DNA from: Bacteroidota bacterium
GTDB lineage: Bacteria; Bacteroidota; Ignavibacteria; Kryptoniales; JAKASW01
Length of the DNA stretch: 61,510 nt
Assembly: GCA_021789975.1 (NCBI GenBank)
Contig: JAJYIT010000026.1
Location: forward strand, 1 to 61,510
Direction: 5' to 3'
Positions 9,581-21,272 of this stretch are shown here, piece by piece (within the stretch, counting starts at the first letter, position 1; every line of letters begins with the position of its first letter). Position numbers and translations under genes: made by a program. A model generated the notes under the pieces. The model searched no databases. It was given only the letters and a program-made list of their open reading frames with translations, and was not told the origin of the DNA.

Positions 9581-11896
9581 ATGCGAAACCAAATGGTTTC
9601 GCTCCCGTATTCTGCCGAAAAGGACGGGCGATTGAAAAATGTTATCGTGATGCTGACAGCACTTGTCGCTGCTTCTCACGCCTTACCGGCACAACCAAAG
9701 AACGACTCGACGAATGCACAACAGTTCGTCATTCCAGCCGTGAGAATCCACGGCAACATCCATCTCACCGGCAAGCTGACAGATCCGAAGTGGAAGCTTG
9801 CACCACGCGTCAGTCTCGATTATGAAATACAACCCGGCAATAACACACCGGCACCTCAGAAGACAGAGGCGTTAGTCTTATACAACTCGCAGTTTGTATA
9901 TTTCGGTTTCATCTGCCACGATACCGATCCGTCTCAGATAAGAGCACACGTAACCGACCGCGACAACATCTTCCAGGATGATTTTGCCGGCGTCATCCTT
10001 GACACGTATGACGACCATCAGAGAGCCTATGAATTTTTCGTAAACCCTTTCGGCATCCAGGCAGACTTGATGAGAAACGGTAATAACGAGGATCCGACGT
10101 GGGACGCCGTGTGGTACTCAAAAGGAAGCCTCAGCGACAGCGGCTACACAGTCGAAATGGCAATCCCGTTCAAGAGCCTGCGTCTGCCGGACAAAGCAAT
10201 CCAGAACTGGGGAATACTTATCTTCCGCAATATACCGAGGTCCAGTCGGATACAGACATCATGGGTGCACCTCGATCTGAATGACCCCTGTTCGCTTTGC
10301 CAGGAAGGGATCCTCGCCGGGATCAAGGGCATGCAATCAGGAAATTCAATCAGTGTTCTCCCCTATGCAATGGGACTCGAGAACGGAAGCGTTGCCGATG
10401 CAAGCAACGCATCTTCTGCTTTCTCTAACGGGCCTGTCACGGGAAGATTCGGAGTTGGGCTGACATATTTTCCGAATCCAAGCCTGTCGCTCGAAGGTGT
10501 CGTGAACCCGGACTTCAGCCAGGTGGAGTCGGATGTGACACAGATTAGCCTGAACTCGACGTTCGCGCTGTTCTATCCTGAGAAACGTCCATTCTTCATG
10601 GAAGGAAGCGACATCTTCAGCACGCTGATCCAGGCTTATTATTCCAGAATGATCAACAACCCGCTTGCAGCCGCAAAGCTCGTGGAAAAATCTGGCCACT
10701 GGTCGGTGGGATACCTTGCCGCGGAAGACAGGACGACTCCCTTCATAATTGCAGGTGAAGAAGGAAGCGTAACCGACAATAACGGCGACAACACTTTTCC
10801 CACACCTTACAGATCTTTCTCGAATATTGTTCGGGCAAGATACAACTTGGGCACGCAATCGTTCGTCGGCGCGCTCGGCACTTTCAGGAATTTCACGAAG
10901 GCTCACAACTATGTCGGTGGAGTCGACTGGGATTATTTCTTCGACGGGAATTATACGTTCGACGGGCAATTCCTCTTCTCAAACACGAGGGAGCTGAACG
11001 ACACTAACTTAGTTTCCGACCCGTCCTATTTCGGAAACACAAGGTTTACCAAAGCATTTGACGGACAAGAATATGATGGTACCGGTTTTCAGACCGACTT
11101 CAGGCGAGACGCCAGGCATTATACCTTCAGATTTACTTACAAGGATTTCTCACCGACATTTCAGGCGGAAGACGGTTACGTTTTCTCAAACGACCTTCGA
11201 ACAGTGGATATGGAACACACTCTTCTTTTCTATCCGAATACTTCGCTGGTGGACAACTGGGGATTCGATCTTGAGTCAGGTCTGCATTTCGACTATCAGG
11301 GATCAAGAAAAGAAAGATGGATACTGCCTTCGCTGATACTCGATCTCAAGAGCCAGACACAATTACAGGTTACATATTATCTGGTGAACGACGAACTATT
11401 CCATTCGGTAAATTTCGTCGGAGTCCATCGCTGGCAATTCAATCTTCAATCCGACCCGACAAGTTCAATCTCATTCTACCTGAACGCTTCGGTGGGAAGA
11501 TTCATAGATCGTGCATCGGATACTGCCATCGGTAAAGGACACGAAATCAGTGCCGAGCTCGTGCTCAGGCCAACGGACAGGTTGTCGCTGACCGCCGACT
11601 ATTCCAGATCGCGTCTGTCAAACCTGGTCGGTGGTCAACTATTTTATGATGGCTACATCGCAAGGCTTTCAGCTATATACCAGTTCAATGGTCAGATATT
11701 CTTGAGGCTCGTCGGTCAGTACGATCAGTTTTCCGGAAGTGTGGAGGTCGATCCGCTTTTCAGCTACAAGCTCAACCCGTTTACGATATTCTACGCAGGT
11801 TCGACAAATAGTCTGACGAAGTTTGGACAACCTTACGGACTAGTTCAGACGGGGAGGGAGTTTTTCGTCAAGGCGCAGTACCTGTTTCAGTACTGA
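9581..11896 (+). CDS. CBM9-like/DUF5916 outer-membrane protein
   Basis: A 771-residue exported protein. After the N-terminus, residues about 50-240 form a family 9 carbohydrate-binding-like beta sandwich (IHGNIHLTGKLTDPKW, ALVLYNSQFVYFGFICHD, DDFAGVILDTYDDHQRAYEFFVNPFGIQ, YTVEMAIPFKSLR). The rest matches the DUF5916 type, a long beta-rich C-terminal region ending in a barrel-like pattern with aromatic end (AQYLFQY). The conserved FYPEKRPFFMEGSDIF stretch, at about residues 332-347, is typical of the family. Substrate is unknown. Two starts are possible: ATG 9581, with a long polar leader, or TTG 9632, which puts a compact signal peptide (KNVIVMLTALVAASHALPAQ) right at the N-terminus behind a purine-rich AGGACGGG. 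The second is attractive. Confidence 0.85.
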   Translation: MRNQMVSLPYSAEKDGRLKNVIVMLTALVAASHALPAQPKNDSTNAQQFVIPAVRIHGNIHLTGKLTDPKWKLAPRVSLDYEIQPGNNTPAPQKTEALVLYNSQFVYFGFICHDTDPSQIRAHVTDRDNIFQDDFAGVILDTYDDHQRAYEFFVNPFGIQADLMRNGNNEDPTWDAVWYSKGSLSDSGYTVEMAIPFKSLRLPDKAIQNWGILIFRNIPRSSRIQTSWVHLDLNDPCSLCQEGILAGIKGMQSGNSISVLPYAMGLENGSVADASNASSAFSNGPVTGRFGVGLTYFPNPSLSLEGVVNPDFSQVESDVTQISLNSTFALFYPEKRPFFMEGSDIFSTLIQAYYSRMINNPLAAAKLVEKSGHWSVGYLAAEDRTTPFIIAGEEGSVTDNNGDNTFPTPYRSFSNIVRARYNLGTQSFVGALGTFRNFTKAHNYVGGVDWDYFFDGNYTFDGQFLFSNTRELNDTNLVSDPSYFGNTRFTKAFDGQEYDGTGFQTDFRRDARHYTFRFTYKDFSPTFQAEDGYVFSNDLRTVDMEHTLLFYPNTSLVDNWGFDLESGLHFDYQGSRKERWILPSLILDLKSQTQLQVTYYLVNDELFHSVNFVGVHRWQFNLQSDPTSSISFYLNASVGRFIDRASDTAIGKGHEISAELVLRPTDRLSLTADYSRSRLSNLVGGQLFYDGYIARLSAIYQFNGQIFLRLVGQYDQFSGSVEVDPLFSYKLNPFTIFYAGSTNSLTKFGQPYGLVQTGREFFVKAQYLFQY

Positions 11897-12279: not shown

Positions 12280-13074
12280 TCATTGTTTCATAACACTGTT
12301 CAATTGCGCACCATCATAGAACCTGGAGTTGTGTGACAGTGCGTAAACATAGTTTGCCACATCCCACCTCTGCTTGTCGGTCAGTATCTGTTGGTATGAC
12401 GGCATCGGGGTCCCGTTCAAACCGGTGCTGAGTATCAGATATATTCTTTCCGGCGTCCTGCCGACCTTCACATCCCACGACCGTGTGAGGTTTGTAGGCC
12501 TGATCGGACGTCCGTCAGCGTCTGTAAGCGTCGGTGCAGCCGGACCGTTTCCCTCTCCGGTTATTCCATGGCAATTCCAGCAGCCCATTTGCAGGTAGTC
12601 CACCCGGCCGCGTTCTATGCTGTTGTACGTGTAGGGGACGGGCATGGTAATATTGACGGTGTCCAGCGGATATTGCGATGAGTCGCTAAACAACGGTGAA
12701 AGCGTTTTAATGTACTCGACAACGGAATATTGGTCCGCAACACTCATCTGGGCAAATGAGGGCATTGCACTGTGATAGATGCCGGAATTTATCAATCTGA
12801 GAAGATCATAGTCAGTGGGAAGCTGACCGGATGCGGTGCTTCTAAATCTGAACGTGCCGTTCCTGAAGTCACGCGGCTTTGTTCGCAAAGAGACCGAAAC
12901 CGGGCCCTGTCCATCACCATTGTCTCCGTGGCATGGAGCACATGCTTCATGGTACACGGCTTTCCCTCTTTCGACGCTCACTGCGTCAGACCCGTTGTAG
13001 CTTGTGGAGCAGGAATAGATGCCGAAACTTAGAATTGCTGCAACCACCGGTATAAACAATCTGAGGTCCTTCAT
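12280..13074 (-). CDS. diheme c-type cytochrome, exported and probably lipid-anchored
   Basis: A 264-residue protein with two c-type haem sites: C45-A-P-C48-H49 and C165-W-N-C168-H169. Possible methionine sixth ligands sit in SAMPSF (M104) and GTPMPSY. The N-terminus is a hydrophobic signal sequence ending in GIYSC (C22), close to a lipobox. Each half resembles a class I cytochrome c domain (GDNGDGQGP, GITGEGNGP). It should carry electrons in the periplasm or at a membrane face. The ATG at 13074 is chosen over GTG 13080 because GGGGAG then sits at proper distance. Only 19 bases separate it from the upstream cytochrome-porin gene, so the two are very likely one operon. Confidence 0.92.
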   Translation of the reverse strand: MKDLRLFIPVVAAILSFGIYSCSTSYNGSDAVSVERGKAVYHEACAPCHGDNGDGQGPVSVSLRTKPRDFRNGTFRFRSTASGQLPTDYDLLRLINSGIYHSAMPSFAQMSVADQYSVVEYIKTLSPLFSDSSQYPLDTVNITMPVPYTYNSIERGRVDYLQMGCWNCHGITGEGNGPAAPTLTDADGRPIRPTNLTRSWDVKVGRTPERIYLILSTGLNGTPMPSYQQILTDKQRWDVANYVYALSHNSRFYDGAQLNSVMKQ

Positions 13075-13093
13075 AATCACGTCTCCCCTTTCC

Positions 13094-14317
13094 CTAAAAC
13101 CCTACCAGCACGCCAAGCGTGGTAAGGGTCGATTTCGTGTCAGTAGAATTAGACGGATTATTATCATTCAACAAACTTAGTTCAAGATAAGCCCCTACAT
13201 TGGCGGCGAAATGATATCGGGCTCCCAGCGTGAACTGGTTCTGTTTTTCGGCCGTCTGTTTTACGTTCGTAAAATCGTATCTGCCATAAACGAAAAATTT
13301 CTCCGGGACAATGAGGACATTGAGTCCAAGGAACCCTCCTGTCATCGTTTGGATCGCTCCGCCGACATTATCGTCGAACGCAGACATATATTGGAAGGAA
13401 AGGTCGAAATGTTTTGTCCACGGGTCGTTGAATTCCAATGCGAACCCAGCGCGGCTCAGATTATTGAACGTGCTGTCAACCAGCATCTGTTTCCCTCCGT
13501 AGAAGTAGAGACCAAACCGGAACGGGGCATTGTCGATGTACTTGGTTTGCTCGACCATCAGGAAAGTTGCCTCGTTGTCGTTCAGGTTTATTCCACCGGC
13601 GGTGCCATTGCTGACGCCCACTTCGTAGCGCAAGCCGTCCATTATCTGCGGAAAGAATCCATAGGCAGACGCCGCCCATTGCGGGTCGGAGATGAGCAGA
13701 TCTCCCTGCACCGGTGTCGCGGGTTCATAATCATAAATCAGGTAATCGGCAGACTCCACCAGAGAAGTGTTGTCGGGAAATGTGTTGAAGAATCGAAACC
13801 GGCCAAACCTGAAGTTGAAGTTGCTCTGCCCGTCTGGTCCGAGAAGATTGTTGAACATTATACTCATCGTCTCGATTGTCGGCGCAAACTTGCCAGGTCC
13901 CGTTATTCCGATGGGAGCCGCAAGGAAATAGCTGAGATGCTTAGCCACCGTCCCTGCCGTGAAAAGATCAAGCCCGCTCGGTTCGAAGGCAAGCGTGTTG
14001 CTGCTTGTCTGTTTGCCGTCGAAGGTTGTTACAACATGGTCGGAAACAAACGAAGGATAGAAAACAAAGGAGAGCGAGAGCGGCTCTTGTGACCAAATGG
14101 GTTGCGCCTCATCCGTACCGGGCAGCTGGTAGCTGTTTATCTGGAACCGTCTCCCGAAATCGTTGAGTACAGGCGGCACGGTGTGACACCTGAAACAACT
14201 TACATGGTACTTCCGAGCAAATAATGGGATACCGTAGGAAGTGCCTGCAAAAAATGAGAGTGTTGTAAACAGAATCGTCTGAGATAGCAACAAAGGAAGT
14301 GTGTGACGATGGAACAT
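13094..14317 (-). CDS. fused monoheme cytochrome-outer-membrane porin, Cyc2-like
   Basis: A 407-residue protein: signal peptide to about residue 29, a short single-haem segment (PLFARKYHVSC41FRC44H45), then PVLNDFGRRFQINSYQLPG, then a long beta-barrel pattern with alternating hydrophobic strands ending LTTLGVLVGF. The order FAR-x5-CxxCH-x4-LNxFGRxFxxNxY followed by a porin is the layout of Cyc2-type fused cytochrome-porins, which pass electrons across the outer membrane (Fe(II) oxidation in known cases). Other families share this N-terminal pattern, so the electron donor is not proven. Start ATG 14317 has GGAGGT just upstream. The operon continues into the diheme cytochrome gene. Confidence 0.8.
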   Translation of the reverse strand: MFHRHTLPLLLSQTILFTTLSFFAGTSYGIPLFARKYHVSCFRCHTVPPVLNDFGRRFQINSYQLPGTDEAQPIWSQEPLSLSFVFYPSFVSDHVVTTFDGKQTSSNTLAFEPSGLDLFTAGTVAKHLSYFLAAPIGITGPGKFAPTIETMSIMFNNLLGPDGQSNFNFRFGRFRFFNTFPDNTSLVESADYLIYDYEPATPVQGDLLISDPQWAASAYGFFPQIMDGLRYEVGVSNGTAGGINLNDNEATFLMVEQTKYIDNAPFRFGLYFYGGKQMLVDSTFNNLSRAGFALEFNDPWTKHFDLSFQYMSAFDDNVGGAIQTMTGGFLGLNVLIVPEKFFVYGRYDFTNVKQTAEKQNQFTLGARYHFAANVGAYLELSLLNDNNPSNSTDTKSTLTTLGVLVGF

Positions 14318-14441
14318 GATACCTCCGATATGTTGGTGCTTGAAAGATCTGACATTGTGCTTACGAAAGGTTTTGAGTCTTCAATAGAGTTCATATTGAG
14401 CCGGAAAGGAACCTGATTAAGTTGTGATCCAATCAATCTCC

Positions 14442-14473
14442 CCTAAGAGTCCCTCGATGAAGAGACTCTTAGG
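14442..14473. other. perfect 10-bp stem-loop between cupredoxin and cytochrome-porin genes
   Basis: CCTAAGAGTC (14442-14451) and GACTCTTAGG (14464-14473) are perfect complements around a 12-base loop. There is no T-run on the minus side, where the neighbouring genes are transcribed. It may therefore be an RNA processing or attenuation element, or a weak terminator, for the cupredoxin transcript. Confidence 0.5.
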
Positions 14474-14517
14474 TGGATTTTCCTAAAAATTTCCAGAGCC
14501 GGACGAGAAAGCGGAAT

Positions 14518-15252
14518 CTATTTCAGCGTAAAGTCGGCCGTCGTGGCCTTTCCCGCTGCGACAGTGATTTCCTGAGTCTGTTCCACCGGTTTTGAGTAAT
14601 CCGGCCTTCCGCCGACAATTTTTGTGTTCCAACCCTCGTGCCACATGACTAGCTTGTATTTGCCCGGCGGGACATTGGAAAGTGTAAAAGCTCCGTCGGA
14701 GTTGGTCTCTGTCGCATAGCCGTTTCCAGCAACGTAGACATACCCATTCATCCACGGATGAACATCACACTCAAGAAGGTACATACCCGGCTTCCTAACC
14801 CTCTGGATGGCTTTCATTCCTTTGATGGGCTCGGCGATATTGAAGGCAGTGGCGTGTGTTGCTTCCACATATCCGTGAACATTGTGGAACATCATATCGG
14901 TATTCTCTACTGTGAACGCGTTGCCTTGCGCAACCACCAGGACGTGGGGATGGTATTCACAATTCTTTTGATCGATGACATATTCACCTGGCGATGTTTT
15001 ACCCGCTTTTTTCTTAAGCCCCTCGATATACACAACCGCGTTCGCTACTCCCCCTCCCTTGCCTACTATCAACCGGTCAAGCGACTTTTCTTTGCCGCAT
15101 CCGGTAAAGGAAGAAGGTACCGGAAACGGCTTCATTGTGGGAGGAGTCCCGGAAAATTTTACGGTCCCGGTTATTGTTCCATCCTGACCATAAGCAATGC
15201 CTGCAGCAACAACGAATACAAAAATAAATGAAAAAAGTTTGGACAGCTTCAT
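14518..15252 (-). CDS. exported cupredoxin-like protein with a carboxypeptidase-regulatory-like domain
   Basis: A 244-residue exported protein with signal peptide (MKLSKLFSFIFVFVVAAGIAYG). The central region has a blue-copper-like ligand pattern: MMFHNVHGY for histidine, then YLLECDVHPWM, a Cys-x2-His-x2-Met arrangement. The last 70 residues (TNSDGAFTLSNVPPGKYKLVMWHEGW) form a carboxypeptidase-regulatory-like beta sandwich. Related proteins are often labelled methylamine-utilisation-like. It may be a periplasmic electron carrier for the neighbouring cytochromes. Start ATG 15252 has AGGAGCG in front; the open frame extends 42 codons further but without signal-like character. A palindromic site lies 53 bases upstream. 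Confidence 0.8.
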   Translation of the reverse strand: MKLSKLFSFIFVFVVAAGIAYGQDGTITGTVKFSGTPPTMKPFPVPSSFTGCGKEKSLDRLIVGKGGGVANAVVYIEGLKKKAGKTSPGEYVIDQKNCEYHPHVLVVAQGNAFTVENTDMMFHNVHGYVEATHATAFNIAEPIKGMKAIQRVRKPGMYLLECDVHPWMNGYVYVAGNGYATETNSDGAFTLSNVPPGKYKLVMWHEGWNTKIVGGRPDYSKPVEQTQEITVAAGKATTADFTLK

Positions 15253-15304
15253 TTCATTCGCTCCTGTTATTTTTTCACGTTCGTATGGGACAACATAACA
15301 ACCT

Positions 15305-15330
15305 CTAATAACATCACTCTTTGTTATTAG
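15305..15330. promoter_or_regulatory. palindromic operator candidate upstream of the cupredoxin gene
   Basis: CTAATAACA (15305-15313) and TGTTATTAG (15322-15330) are exact inverted repeats of 9 bases separated by 8 bases. The centre is about 65 bases from the cupredoxin start, a usual promoter location. The binding protein is unknown. Confidence 0.5.
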
Positions 15331-15594
15331 TTCCAATATGGTAAGAGACGCCATTGCTGCAGTGCTTAAAAGGGTCATGGGCTACAGTAGAAGGAGACCC
15401 ATATGCTTCCTGCATGCCGGGCTGATTCCGCATCAGGATTCGGAATCTTGTTGGTTTGCGTGTTGTGGATCGGAGGTGTTCAATCTGAGGCAATTTTAGC
15501 TCCGAATCGGGCGTAGAGGAGTTATCCAGACCACGGCAAACGTCAGATGGAAAGGCGAGCTGGCCTAAGACAAGACAAAATCTTATTTTTCTTG

Positions 15595-18500
15595 TCAGTC
15601 GCCCTCTCTAAGCGAGCGATACTTTTTAAGTTTTCCCTCAACGACAGCTATTAGCATATCCGGATCAACCGGTTTGGTCAGGTAATCGTCGACCCCCAAC
15701 TGAATTCCTGTCCTTACGAAAAACCCTTCGTGAAGACCGCTCATCATGATGAACGGGACTTTCTTAAGGCGCGGGATTTTCTGCACCTTCTCATAAAACG
15801 AGAACCCGTCTCCTTCAGTGCCCGAGAACATGACGTCAGAAATTATCATATCCACATCGGTAGAGCTGAGCAGTTTCAGGGCATCGGTTGGGCTCTCTTT
15901 GGTAAGGACCCTGTAGCCGTAACTCTCGAGAACCGGCCTAACAGTGTCGAGAAAACTCTGCTCATCGTCCACTACAAGGATTACGGCTTTCATCAATGCG
16001 CGCTGGAACACGGACAGAATCTGCGGTTCGAGCTTAGCTGATTCTTCTGCAGAGATCTGATACCTTCGTTTGAGCTCGTCGAGTGCACCTTCCTCACTCG
16101 CCTTGATTCTTCCCTTCTTTACTTCCTTTTCGACTTCGCTCACATACACTTGAATTCTTATTTCGGCTTCGCAAATGAAATGGTCTTCAAATGTAAGCCC
16201 AAGTACGTCGCGGAGCTGCATGAGTTCGCGTGCAGCATCTGCCGTAACGGGGGGGGTCGCCCAAGCCTCTCTGAGACGCGACATATAAATCCTCATCTTG
16301 TCTTCCCTGCTGCTCGGAAGCTTGATCCCGAAGAGTCTCAATTTCTCTTCATAGCTGGCCTGAAGTGAATCGCGGGCCTCATCGATTCTGCGATCGAGTT
16401 CTCGCTGGATTTCGCTTTTCATAGCAAGCCTTGAAGTATCGAGCTTTCGCTGCTCTTCTTCAACGATTCTTCTGCGATCTTCTTCGAGCCTCCACGACTT
16501 CTCCCGCAACTCGCTCTCCGCCCGCTTTTCTAATTTCTCTCTTTCTGAAGAGAGTTGTTCCGCCATTTTTGTCTGTAATTCAGACTCCAACTTTTTCCGC
16601 ATCTCATCATACTTTGTCTCGAATTCCGTCTTCTCCTTGTTTCTAATCTCTTCGAGACGCTTATTTAGCTCTCTCTGGCTGTCGTCTTCCAGTTTCTTAT
16701 ATTTTTCTTCATAAGATTTTTCCAACTCATCCTGACGCGATTTTATCCGATCTTCTATCTTCTTTTTCTCCGTATCCAGGTTCTCCTGGAATTCCTTCTC
16801 CAGCCTTTGACGGGTCGATTCGACAAGATTATCACTCTCCTTTTGCTTTTCGGCGATGGTAGAAGCTTTCACCCGCTCGATTTCCATTGCAAGCTGCTTT
16901 TCGAATTCTGCACTCATTTGTTTCTTGCTGTCGCCGATCGCCTTTCTTTCCTCATCAAGGAGCGCTCTCTTCTCACGCACGGCAGTCTCTTTGAGGTCCA
17001 GCATGGACCTTTCGTATAAGGCGCTCATTTCAGCTCGCGTTTCTTCTTCCGCGTGCGTTCGTTCAGCCGCCAATTGCTCCCTGTAGGCAGCCTCCATCTT
17101 GGCAACCTCTGTATCTACTTTCCCCTTCGACTCCTTCTCAAGTTCGCGCCTGAATTTCTCCTTCTCCTTGTCGAGGTTGGAAATCAAGGAAGCTCGCTCA
17201 GCTTCTTGCCATTCTCTCTCTTTCTTCAGAGCGTCTGCTATACGCTGCTCAGCTTTTCGGATTTCGTCTGTGAATTTCTTGCTGTACTCGGCCTCAATCT
17301 TCTTCTCGATTTCAGCTCTAATCTTCTTTTCGTATTGAGACTCTATTTCCTTCTTAGCTTCCGAAACGCGTGCCTCAAGCTCTTTCTGGATGTCCATGTC
17401 CTGGGCGGCCGCGGCATCACTGTTCTTCCGTCGCTCTTCCTCCGCGGATTTCTTGACTCTTTCTTCCAACTTCGACTGCTGCTCATGGAGTTGTTCTTCT
17501 AATCTTTTCTCCATCTTTTCGCGCTCGGATGCAAGCTCCGAAGTCAGTTTTGACTTGTATTCGGACTCCAGTCGTCTGCGCGCTTCTTCATATTTCTTTT
17601 CTAGATCTTCTTGCCCTTTGTTCCTCGCTTCCCCAATTCGCTTTTCAAGTTCGCCCTTTGTCTCAGACTCCAGTGAATCGTACCGTTCCTGATACTTCTT
17701 TTCTAATTCCTTTTCCTGGATCTTGATTTGATCTTCAATTTTTTTTCTTTCAGCTTCAAGCTTTTGCTGAAAATCCTTCTCAAGACGGGTTCGAGTGGTT
17801 TCAATTAACTCCTTACGCTCTTTCTCTCGCTGAGCTTTTGTAGAAGCCTCGACTTTCGCAATTTCGGATGCAAGCCTCCTGTCGAACTCCTTCTGCATCT
17901 GCTTCTTGTTTTCATCGATGGCCTTTTGTTCCTTATCGAGGAGTCCGCGTTTTTCGCGAATGGCAGTTTCTTTCAACTCTTGTTTGGCTTTTTCGTAGAG
18001 AGTATCCATCTCTCTCTTTATTGCCTCTTCGGCTTTTTTCCTTTCATCCGCCAACTGGTCACGGAAAGAGGCTTCCATCTTGGCTGCCTCGTTGTCATAC
18101 TTCTCTTTCGCCTCTTTCTCGAAATTCTGCCTAAACTCTTCCTTTTCTCTCTCCAGTTTGGCAACAAGCGAAGTCCGTTCTGCCTCCCGAGCTTCGCGCT
18201 CCTTTTTCAGCGCAATCGCTACTCGCTCATCCGCTTTTCGAATTTCGTCTTCTAATTTGCGATTGTATTCGGCCTCTAGCTTCCGCTGAATCTCCGACCT
18301 GATCGACTCCTCGTCAATTGTAACCTTGTCCGCGTCGACCTCGACCGGGACATTATCTTCCTCGACACTCAGATGGACCGGATCGGGGACTTCTGCCGCT
18401 TTGGTCCGGGCTGCGTCAATCAGTGCCTGGAGACGCTCGCCCAAGGCAAGCGCATAAACATTGTTCGCTTCGATTGATCGAACGGTGTTGAGTTCTTCCC

Positions 18501-18630
18501 CGGCCTCGGGATATTTCCCCTCCCTGATGTACTTGTCGGCCATCCTGAGGTGAAAGGCGGCTTCCTGCCTGGAAGCATCTGTTGGTGATGGTGGTAAGGG
18601 CTTTACTTTTTGGCTCTTCTTGAACAACAT
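15595..18630 (-). CDS. giant coiled-coil protein with C-terminal response-regulator receiver domain
   Basis: A 1011-residue cytoplasmic protein in four parts. Residues 20-80 form a helical TPR-like segment (AAFHLRMADKYIREGKYPEA, LNTVRSIEANNVYALALGER). Residues about 110-765 are an uninterrupted charged coiled coil. Residues 770-878 are a helical linker (RLREAWATPPVTADAARELM). Residues 880-1005 are a canonical receiver domain with D888, D889, phospho-acceptor D932 (IISDVMF), S964 and K986 (LTKPVD). The coiled coil contains two copies of a 327-residue unit in perfect register (see the repeat entry). It carries no DNA-binding or enzymatic output, so phosphorylation may control filament or scaffold behaviour, which is inference. 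No kinase gene is adjacent in the operon; phoU-phoR-phoB lies upstream on the same strand. Confidence 0.85.
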   Translation of the reverse strand: MLFKKSQKVKPLPPSPTDASRQEAAFHLRMADKYIREGKYPEAGEELNTVRSIEANNVYALALGERLQALIDAARTKAAEVPDPVHLSVEEDNVPVEVDADKVTIDEESIRSEIQRKLEAEYNRKLEDEIRKADERVAIALKKEREAREAERTSLVAKLEREKEEFRQNFEKEAKEKYDNEAAKMEASFRDQLADERKKAEEAIKREMDTLYEKAKQELKETAIREKRGLLDKEQKAIDENKKQMQKEFDRRLASEIAKVEASTKAQREKERKELIETTRTRLEKDFQQKLEAERKKIEDQIKIQEKELEKKYQERYDSLESETKGELEKRIGEARNKGQEDLEKKYEEARRRLESEYKSKLTSELASEREKMEKRLEEQLHEQQSKLEERVKKSAEEERRKNSDAAAAQDMDIQKELEARVSEAKKEIESQYEKKIRAEIEKKIEAEYSKKFTDEIRKAEQRIADALKKEREWQEAERASLISNLDKEKEKFRRELEKESKGKVDTEVAKMEAAYREQLAAERTHAEEETRAEMSALYERSMLDLKETAVREKRALLDEERKAIGDSKKQMSAEFEKQLAMEIERVKASTIAEKQKESDNLVESTRQRLEKEFQENLDTEKKKIEDRIKSRQDELEKSYEEKYKKLEDDSQRELNKRLEEIRNKEKTEFETKYDEMRKKLESELQTKMAEQLSSEREKLEKRAESELREKSWRLEEDRRRIVEEEQRKLDTSRLAMKSEIQRELDRRIDEARDSLQASYEEKLRLFGIKLPSSREDKMRIYMSRLREAWATPPVTADAARELMQLRDVLGLTFEDHFICEAEIRIQVYVSEVEKEVKKGRIKASEEGALDELKRRYQISAEESAKLEPQILSVFQRALMKAVILVVDDEQSFLDTVRPVLESYGYRVLTKESPTDALKLLSSTDVDMIISDVMFSGTEGDGFSFYEKVQKIPRLKKVPFIMMSGLHEGFFVRTGIQLGVDDYLTKPVDPDMLIAVVEGKLKKYRSLREGD
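16339..18249 (-). repeat. two gapless 327-codon-spaced copies within the coiled-coil gene
   Basis: Residues about 128-437 (17320-18249) and 455-764 (16339-17268) align with a constant offset of 327 and no gaps. Matching anchors include DEIRKADERVA/DEIRKAEQRIA, LLDKEQKAIDENKKQM/LLDEERKAIGDSKKQM, SELASEREKMEKR/EQLSSEREKLEKR and IQKELEARVSEA/IQRELDRRIDEA. This is an old tandem duplication whose length has been held strictly. Confidence 0.85.
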
Positions 18631-18767
18631 GCTAAGACCCTGAAAAATGCTCAGACAAAATATGAAACCCTACAATGATTAGCAACACGCCCACGATGAC
18701 GCGGAAAATTCATCGAATTATAACGATTTCTCTCCCCCCTAAGTTCCGTGGAATCGTCTCGAATCTT

Positions 18768-19436
18768 CTACTCCCCGATGTCTGCCGCATGGTGCTTTAT
18801 TATCTTGGCATCGACCAGGAAGACCACGTCTTCTGCAATGTTCGTTGCGTGATCAGCGACCCGCTCAATATGCTTTAGCGCCACAATCAAATGTGCTCCG
18901 GGCTCTATGAGATCGGGACTCGATTTCATCTCCCCAATCACATAACGGAATTTCTGCCTGTTCATCTCATCTACCACGTCATCTTGCCTGCATATCCGCC
19001 GCGCCAGCTCCGCGTCTGCATGTATGAAGGAATCGATACTATCATGGACCATTTGTCTTGCTACATCCCCCATCTCAAGGATAGCTGTCCGGTGCACAAG
19101 CTGCGGATAGTCCCTCAGCGGCTCAACTCTCTGTGCAATATTCACAGCGACGTCCCCGATCCGTTCGAGTTCATGATTCATCTTAATTGCAGACAACACC
19201 AAGCGAAGGTCTGCTGCGACGGGTTGTTCAAGCGCCATGATTTCATCTATCTCCTTATCCAGAAGATTGTCGAAACCATTCACCTTCTGCTCCGTTTCAT
19301 AAACCCGATTAGTCGCTTCTACGTTTCCATCGTGTAGTGCGCGAAACGAGAGATCCAACTGTTCGTCGACAAGACTCCCCATCTTAATGAGATTAGCTCT
19401 CAAAGTTTCCAGCAGATCCTCGAAATGTCTATGCAT
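18768..19436 (-). CDS. phoU: phosphate signalling regulator PhoU
   Basis: A 222-residue all-helical protein with the two PhoU repeats: an N-terminal copy (LIKMGSLVDEQLDLSFRAL, LDKEIDEIMALEQPVAADLR, LSAIKMNHELERIGDVAVNIAQRV) and a C-terminal copy ending in LIVALKHIERVADHATNIAEDVVFLV. PhoU links the Pst transporter to the PhoR kinase and keeps the Pho response off when phosphate is plentiful. Start ATG 19436 has GGAGG eight bases upstream. It follows phoR after 53 bases, so phoB-phoR-phoU form one minus-strand operon. The pst transporter genes are not in the window. Confidence 0.95.
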   Translation of the reverse strand: MHRHFEDLLETLRANLIKMGSLVDEQLDLSFRALHDGNVEATNRVYETEQKVNGFDNLLDKEIDEIMALEQPVAADLRLVLSAIKMNHELERIGDVAVNIAQRVEPLRDYPQLVHRTAILEMGDVARQMVHDSIDSFIHADAELARRICRQDDVVDEMNRQKFRYVIGEMKSSPDLIEPGAHLIVALKHIERVADHATNIAEDVVFLVDAKIIKHHAADIGE

Positions 19437-19489: not shown

Positions 19490-20542
19490 TTATTTTTTCA
19501 AAAGAAAGCTAAATTCTGATCCTTCACCGAGCTCACTTTTCACATCGACTTTGCTTTTATGAGCATCTATTATATGTTTGACGATGGCCAAACCCAGCCC
19601 GGTTCCGCCGACACTCCGGCTCCTGTCTTTGTCTACGCGATAGAATCGCTCGAATATCCGCGCCAGATGTTCTTTTCCTATGCCGGATCCGGTGTCGCGA
19701 ACAAATACACGGACAGAATCCGGTAATTCAACGAATCCAACTTCGATTATGCCACCGGAGTCCGTATACTTGATCGCGTTATCTACCAAGTTGTACATGA
19801 CCTGCCTTAATCTCTCTTTGTCACCAAGAACCAGGACCTCCTGGGAGATGATGCGATTCTCTATTCGAAGTGACTTCTTCTCAGCCTTCGGGATCATCTC
19901 TTCAATGATTGTCCTCAGAAATTCCGTTATGTCAAAATAACGAAAACTCATCCGCATCTCTCCACTTTCAATGCGCGATATTTCTATCAGATCATTAAGG
20001 AGATTGTTGAGTCTCTCAGAATGCTCATATGCCTTCTGGAGAAATTCCCGATTTACCCCGGGATCGTCGATCGCTCCGTCAATAAGCGTTTCTATGAATC
20101 CTTGTATGCTGAAAATGGGAGTGCGTAATTCATGCGAGACATTCGCAAGAAACTCACTTCTGACCCGCTCAAGCTTCTTCAGTTTTGAAATGTCATCTTT
20201 CAAGTTGGCAACGATTTGATTGGTAAGCTTCCCAATCTTGCTGAGTTCAACGCCGCCTGCTTCGGGGAGCTGCACCGAAAGATCGCCGGCACTGATCCGG
20301 CGTAGAGCATCAATGATGGTCGCCAGTATACTTCCCTGTCGCCTTCGAAATGCAGCGTAAGTTTCTTCGAAGATGAAGAAGAAGACGGCAATTACAGCAG
20401 ATGCGATCTCAAGACCATAGTGAACCAGGGCGTTTCGTAAGGAGAGCATGTTTTCTAGTTGACCTAGAAATAGGTAAAGCAGGACACCCAGCACTATCGC
20501 GAGGACAAGTCTTTGTTTGTATGACGAGAATAAGCGGTTCAT
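19490..20542 (-). CDS. phoR: phosphate-regulon sensor histidine kinase PhoR
   Basis: A 350-residue membrane kinase: two hydrophobic segments (about 11-29 and 43-60) with almost no periplasmic domain, a HAMP-like stretch (IIDALRRISAGDLSVQLPE), the dimerisation/phospho-acceptor motif SHELRTPIFSIQGF with H137, and a complete ATP-binding domain (NLVDNAIKYT, DTGSGIGKEHL, GGTGLGLAIVKHII). The lack of a sensory periplasmic loop fits PhoR, which reads the Pst-PhoU complex. Compared with E. coli PhoR no clear PAS domain is visible. ATG 20542 is chosen because the frame upstream is not membrane- or signal-like. It is flanked by phoB and phoU. Confidence 0.93.
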   Translation of the reverse strand: MNRLFSSYKQRLVLAIVLGVLLYLFLGQLENMLSLRNALVHYGLEIASAVIAVFFFIFEETYAAFRRRQGSILATIIDALRRISAGDLSVQLPEAGGVELSKIGKLTNQIVANLKDDISKLKKLERVRSEFLANVSHELRTPIFSIQGFIETLIDGAIDDPGVNREFLQKAYEHSERLNNLLNDLIEISRIESGEMRMSFRYFDITEFLRTIIEEMIPKAEKKSLRIENRIISQEVLVLGDKERLRQVMYNLVDNAIKYTDSGGIIEVGFVELPDSVRVFVRDTGSGIGKEHLARIFERFYRVDKDRSRSVGGTGLGLAIVKHIIDAHKSKVDVKSELGEGSEFSFLLKK

Positions 20543-20585
20543 GCTACATTTTCTCCGAAGGGGTCTGCCTGCTGGCAGGTTGGGA

Positions 20586-21272
20586 TCAGCCCTCGGCCTT
20601 GAATTTGTACCCGACACCCTTTATCGTCTCAATCATCTCGGAACGCTCACCCAACTTCTCCCTGATTTTCCTGATATGAACATCAACCGTGCGATCACCT
20701 ACGTATGCATCTGCACCCCACACCCTTGACAGGAGCGTATCACGGGTCACTACTTTTCCTTCATGAGATGCTAAATAGTAAAGAACTTCAAATTCCTTTC
20801 TCGGGAAGAAGACCTCTTTCCCACCGATCTTGACAGTATACCGCTCCCTGTCGATCAAGACCTCACCGAAATCGATGTTCTTCTGCTCATCTGCTTTCAT
20901 CCCATCGACTCGTCTCAGAACCGCCCTGATCCTTGAGATTAGTTTCCGCGGACTTATAGGTTTGACGATGTAGTCATCCGCTCCCAGTTCTAATCCGAGG
21001 ACCTCATCGAATTCTGCACTCTTCGCTGTCAGGAAGATTACCGGAATGCTGTTAGTTTTGTCGCTCTGGTTAAGCGTTTTAATTACCTCATAACCATCTT
21101 TCCCGGGAAGCATGATGTCTAATAGGATGACATCAGGCCTCACTTCATTGGCTTTGAGCAACGCAGCATTACCATCGAGGGCCGATTCTACTCGGAATCC
21201 CTCCCGCTCCAGATTGTAACGAATCAGTTGTATGATATCCTTTTCGTCGTCAACGACCAGGACGGTTTTCAT
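20586..21272 (-). CDS. phoB: OmpR-family response regulator PhoB
   Basis: A 228-residue two-domain regulator: receiver with D8, D9, phospho-acceptor D52 (ILLDIMLPGKDG) and K104 (YIVKPISPRK), then an OmpR/PhoB winged helix (FPRKEFEVLYYLASHEGKVV, VGDRTVDVHIRKIREKLG). Its position first in phoB-phoR-phoU supports the phosphate assignment. Start ATG 21272 has AGGAGA at good spacing. A 43-base gap to phoR contains a CCTGCC...GGCAGG palindrome. The two upstream tRNA genes are on the same strand. Confidence 0.93.
   Translation of the reverse strand: MKTVLVVDDEKDIIQLIRYNLEREGFRVESALDGNAALLKANEVRPDVILLDIMLPGKDGYEVIKTLNQSDKTNSIPVIFLTAKSAEFDEVLGLELGADDYIVKPISPRKLISRIRAVLRRVDGMKADEQKNIDFGEVLIDRERYTVKIGGKEVFFPRKEFEVLYYLASHEGKVVTRDTLLSRVWGADAYVGDRTVDVHIRKIREKLGERSEMIETIKGVGYKFKAEG

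Follow-up and report, generated by a model that had tools for sequence, protein, structure and literature searches.

A 1,011-residue response-regulator-like protein with a doubled, probably right-handed coil, encoded beside Pho genes in an ignavibacterial genome

The window analyzed here is a 61,510-nt stretch of DNA (contig JAJYIT010000026.1 of assembly GCA_021789975.1) from an uncultured Bacteroidota bacterium of the class Ignavibacteria. At 15595..18630 it carries a minus-strand open reading frame (18630..15595) that starts with ATG and encodes 1,011 amino acids; the first-pass annotation had placed a gene at these coordinates and left its strand unstated. Immediately upstream lies phoU (18768..19436, minus strand; NCBIfam phoU_full, 195 bits against a cut-off of 130), followed on the same strand by genes for a PhoR-like histidine kinase (19490..20617) and a PhoB-like DNA-binding response regulator (20586..21272). 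The best NCBIfam models for the latter two are PnpS/PhoR and PhoB, respectively, both scoring below the curated cut-offs, and synteny supports all three assignments.

Read from its N terminus, the protein comprises a TPR-like helical hairpin (residues 18–77; 18400..18579, minus strand as are all that follow), a variable unstructured stretch (residues 78–106; 18313..18399), a first coil copy, rep1 (residues 107–433; 17332..18312), a second copy, rep2 (residues 434–765; 16336..17331), a helical linker domain (residues 766–879; 15994..16335), and a C-terminal receiver domain (residues 880–1005; 15616..15993). The sequence argues strongly for this anatomy of hairpin, very long coil (about 660 residues), linker, and complete receiver. 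The unstructured stretch was delimited by alignment and by low pLDDT, and its counterpart in relatives is variable in length and often rich in Pro or Gln.

The receiver is recognized both by Pfam (Response_reg, residues 884–997, E-value 7e-20, 71.6 bits against a cut-off of 30.2) and by comparison with receivers in the PDB. Its acidic pair (D888/D889), predicted phospho-acceptor (D932, codon at 15835..15837), Ser/Thr position (S964), and Lys (K986) are all present and are invariant in eight sequences from the genus, so that the domain has, as first annotated, every catalytic residue and is predicted to be competent for phosphorylation. It is also the sole confident Pfam match; the Pfam search returned no Trans_reg_C winged helix, and the chain stops after the receiver, in line with the earlier description of a rod protein that has no DNA-binding or enzymatic output. 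The hairpin matches TPR_19 below threshold (18.8 bits against a cut-off of 25), is modeled by AlphaFold2 as three confident helices, and is kept across the class-wide family. The two-part, helical linker is likewise kept throughout that family, its modeled helices mostly having a pLDDT of 82–92. It weakly resembles Tic110, a protein of the chloroplast envelope: the Pfam Tic110 match (E-value 0.028) lies below the cut-off, a family linker profile matches the Tic110 structure 4bm5 with an E-value of 2.8e-4, and the profile match spans only about 76 residues. A structure search with the modeled linker and receiver found almost only receivers and was uninformative about the linker.

The coil consists of two copies of one sequence. 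In a self-comparison the best offset is 327, aligning residues 107–438 with 434–765 without a gap (332 residues, 53% identity, score 919), whereas the runner-up offset scores 311 and the maximum over 200 shuffles of the coil is 140. The claimed constant offset of 327 without an indel thus extends further than the roughly 310 residues originally reported. Because the copies are only 58% identical in DNA sequence, and 36% at third codon positions, the duplication is old and not an echo of assembly; an artefact is further ruled out by the same doubling in an independent genome (G005). We also considered whether the length of the duplication was selected to preserve the register of the coil, but 327/3.75 gives 87.2 turns, a slip close to one-fifth of a turn that is not significant.

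Fourier analysis of large hydrophobic residues reveals a hydrophobic stripe along the coil with a period of 3.73–3.77 residues per turn. Over the whole coil the stripe power reaches 79 at about 3.755, whereas the highest value among 500 shuffles was 9.5. A heptad coil was rejected (stripe power 0.2 at 3.5), as was a hendecad coil (0.4 at 11/3); the coil instead has the 15/4 hydrophobic periodicity that characterizes pentadecads. As controls, identical code returned 3.47–3.54 for an SMC coil from the same genome and 3.34–3.53 for a second protein of the SMC_N family. A strip of about 120 degrees contains nearly all of the large hydrophobic residues, which make up 62% of the stripe center, where Ala accounts for 6%. 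Apart from slow drift, the phase of the stripe is kept within each copy, and it shifts by about 55–80 degrees around the joint between the copies (residues 402–412; 17395..17427, minus strand), a region that contains PP in the sister species G005. In published theory a 15/4 periodicity corresponds to a right-handed supercoil equal in strength to the left-handed supercoil of heptads (PMC9858780, PMC4786415), so the coil is probably a right-handed supercoil. An AlphaFold2 monomer model computed from an eight-sequence input, whose mean pLDDT of 67.5 is low, places helices at 18–77, 110–262, 269–401, 413–589, and 596–767, followed by the linker helices and the receiver. The helix breaks in this low-confidence model (263–268, 402–412, and 590–595) count against a rod; those at 263–268 and 590–595 are equivalent by the offset of 327, and the remaining one is the joint.

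The gene is present in 11 of 13 genomes of the genus, that is, in the window's own genome and as an orthologue in 10 of the 12 others. In nine of the eleven the coil is single and exactly 327 residues long, with no indel relative to rep2. Only the window's genome (G000) and G005 encode a doubled coil, and these two species are sisters (support 100/100). The four copies from the two species form one clade with moderate support (86/89 and 90/89), within which the stem of rep2 is short (0.17) and that of rep1 is long (0.47). Rep2 is the conservative copy, closest to the single coil of the genus, and rep1 the derived, faster-evolving one. There is good support from the phylogeny for an in-frame doubling of the whole coil in the stem ancestor of the two sister species, which would make it a recent, local event. 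Between G000 and G005, dN is 0.24 for rep1, 0.17 for rep2, 0.10 for the linker, and 0.05 for the receiver, whereas dS is saturated or exceeds 1; low dN against such a dS places rep1 under purifying selection. Its length is not strictly frozen, since rep1 of G005 shows an insertion of 11 residues and a deletion of one. The statement that the copies had diverged in sequence while their length had not therefore holds in the window's species and fails in its sister.

Of 391 genomes sampled from the class, 27 have a strong match to the linker profile, and every one of these belongs to one of three families (f1, f18, and f23). In a draw of 395 genomes from the phylum, all 19 matching genomes belong to this same class, so the protein family is class-restricted. 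A limited literature search found no published description of it, an absence that proves little, and this family of response regulators is apparently undescribed. Members from all three families have a hairpin-to-linker spacer of 358–367 residues, and the coil is 327 residues long in G115, from another family, as well. The spacer measures 377–385 residues in four members with a longer unstructured part, 141–159 in short forms, and, in five others, 451, 574, 659, 659, and 724; of these five, at least four have their own internal duplications (of 210 residues in G157, of 74 in G081 and G306, and of 159 in G248). Family f18 coils (L126, L127, L129, and L052) were lengthened independently, by duplications of 210, 159, and 74 residues. 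Distant relatives keep the hairpin, linker, and receiver around a disordered or charged spacer, whereas two f13 proteins of 1,135 and 1,182 residues (L133 and L134, from G109 and G031) have the hairpin, a long charged coil, further hairpins, and the linker but no receiver. Overall, both ends tend to be conserved while the middle evolves.

Across these alignments, coil length is conserved in the base form and not universally fixed. The fixed length proposed by the first-pass annotation is thus borne out by the 327 residues of the nine single-coil orthologues and of G115, and contradicted by the other lengths among relatives. Contrary to that proposal, the duplication itself is not what fixes length: its origin lies in the stem shared by two sister species, and relatives have other lengths. 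That annotation had named variable coils with no conserved register as evidence that would speak against it; coil lengths do vary, but the 15/4 register (mostly 3.7–3.76 in the coils of the three families) and the link between coil and receiver are kept.

Two conserved ends, a long, presumably multimerizing rod, and an intact receiver at one end lead us to read the protein as a class-restricted response regulator that acts as a phosphorylation-controlled scaffold or tether, a reading to which we give about an even chance. A mechanism can be sketched on circumstantial grounds. The stripe would make the helices associate as a right-handed multimer, a rod with a rise of 0.149 nm per residue that measures about 49 nm for every 327 residues and about 98 nm here, and the hairpin at its far end would hold a partner. 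A histidine kinase would phosphorylate D932 and so alter the receiver–linker end, which in turn might bind or release a second partner or alter the association of the rods. The duplication would have extended the reach by about 50 nm with neither end changed. We entertain, with considerable doubt, the further idea of a phosphorylation-switched molecular ruler in which the right-handed coil sets a distance inside the cell and its length evolves in whole in-frame steps while the ends are kept; the length steps observed are in frame, a full-coil doubling here and 210- and 74-residue steps elsewhere.

The very long coil, its conserved base length, and its sharp amphipathic stripe would also suit a phosphorylation-switched filament, with rods of fixed subunit length polymerizing end to end or laterally in the manner of a cytoskeleton, and intermediate-filament-like coil proteins with cytoskeletal function are described in bacteria (PMC2680258). 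However, two conserved globular ends around a variable middle suit a tether better, and subunit length differs two-fold inside one genus; filament formation is possible, but nothing favors it over a tether, and we consider it unlikely. The spacers of relatives, which range from about 96 to 724 residues and are disordered in some, might instead indicate a receiver of the stand-alone type, or a phosphate sink, for which the coil is a passive multimerization handle whose length drifts neutrally. The exact length of 327 residues kept without an indel in nine orthologues from the genus (identity to the window protein is 64–68% for those compared), together with the low dN and saturated dS of rep1, make this quite unlikely. 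Finally, with E, K, and R making up about 47% of its residues and with the symmetric breaks of the model at 263–268 and 590–595, the charged coil could form single alpha-helices or intramolecular hairpins rather than an intermolecular rod. Single alpha-helices need no hydrophobic stripe, whereas the stripe here lies far above chance and stays in phase across the breaks, and we regard this explanation as highly improbable.

A scaffold or tether of the kind we favor has partial parallels. FrzS and AglZ of Myxococcus xanthus similarly combine a receiver with a long coiled coil and no enzymatic or DNA-binding output, and FrzS, a polar protein, recruits a protein with TPRs (PMC1974792, PMC11580455). 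Their receivers, however, are N-terminal and have no phosphorylation site, in contrast to the C-terminal receiver with all catalytic residues found here, and the pentadecad coil, N-terminal TPR-like hairpin, and Tic110-like linker set the present protein apart from them. The DivIVA-like actinobacterial coils FilP and Scy resemble it in having a very long non-heptad coil grown by expansion (PMC9858780) and differ in their hendecads, Ala-rich cores, and DivIVA head, where this protein has a 15/4 period, an Ala-poor core, and a receiver tail. No DivIVA match was found with Pfam up to an E-value of 0.1, or with the N-terminal 120 residues up to an E-value of 5. Heptad intermediate-filament-like proteins have a periodicity of 3.5, at which this coil has almost no stripe power. 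PhoB/OmpR proteins share with it the sequence class of the receiver and the genomic neighborhood, but this protein has no DNA-binding domain and its receiver lies at the opposite end of the chain.

Long pentadecad coils are known mainly from surface adhesins, and the stalks of trimeric autotransporter adhesins include pentadecads. Those adhesins are surface proteins without signaling domains, and homology to the protein described here was neither found nor is claimed. Right-handed coiled-coil segments have been reported in such stalks (Alvarez 2010, as cited in PMC4786415). A signaling protein in which some 660 residues of pentadecad coil are joined to a complete receiver would represent a new type of two-component output, and the natural single- and double-length orthologues of the genus, along with the independently elongated forms in another family, provide a comparison set for relating coil length to function.

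As for the signal, it is probably part of the Pho (phosphate) circuit in this genus, given that the gene lies behind phoB, phoR, and phoU. The order phoR–phoU–gene is found in the window's genome and in nine other genomes of the genus, with a gap of about 130–150 nt between phoU and the gene in nine of the ten and with phoB further upstream in all but G003, whose examined stretch ends before the position of phoB; the G005 contig begins at the gene, leaving its upstream flank unreadable. Outside the genus, Pho genes are not among the neighbors, which have no clear shared function. Joint loss of the gene and phoU in G004 and G007 was considered as a sign of functional coupling and set aside, as no close phoB orthologue is found there either. 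A gap in the genome bin is equally likely in view of the missing phoB and, in G004, of the missing neighboring gene (9584–11896), which lies at a contig edge in G007. Ten aligned upstream regions reveal a promoter-like pair ahead of the gene (GTGTTG-18-CATATT; 18659..18688, minus strand), present in most of the genus in forms such as TTATTG-18-CATAAC; it suggests a transcription start of the gene's own, so that membership of an operon may not be obligate for the gene. Moreover, PhoR need not be the kinase for this receiver, whose first helix differs from that of the neighboring PhoB. The receiver closest to it in the genome (46% identity) belongs to a 365-residue REC–histidine kinase (L002; G000:C54:62424-63521), a candidate kinase or relay partner, and similar receivers occur in frames of 327–487 residues in all 12 other genomes of the genus. 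Downstream, 12280–15378 encodes cytochrome c-like, outer-membrane-like, and cupredoxin-like proteins, a trio that is kept beside the gene in part of the genus.
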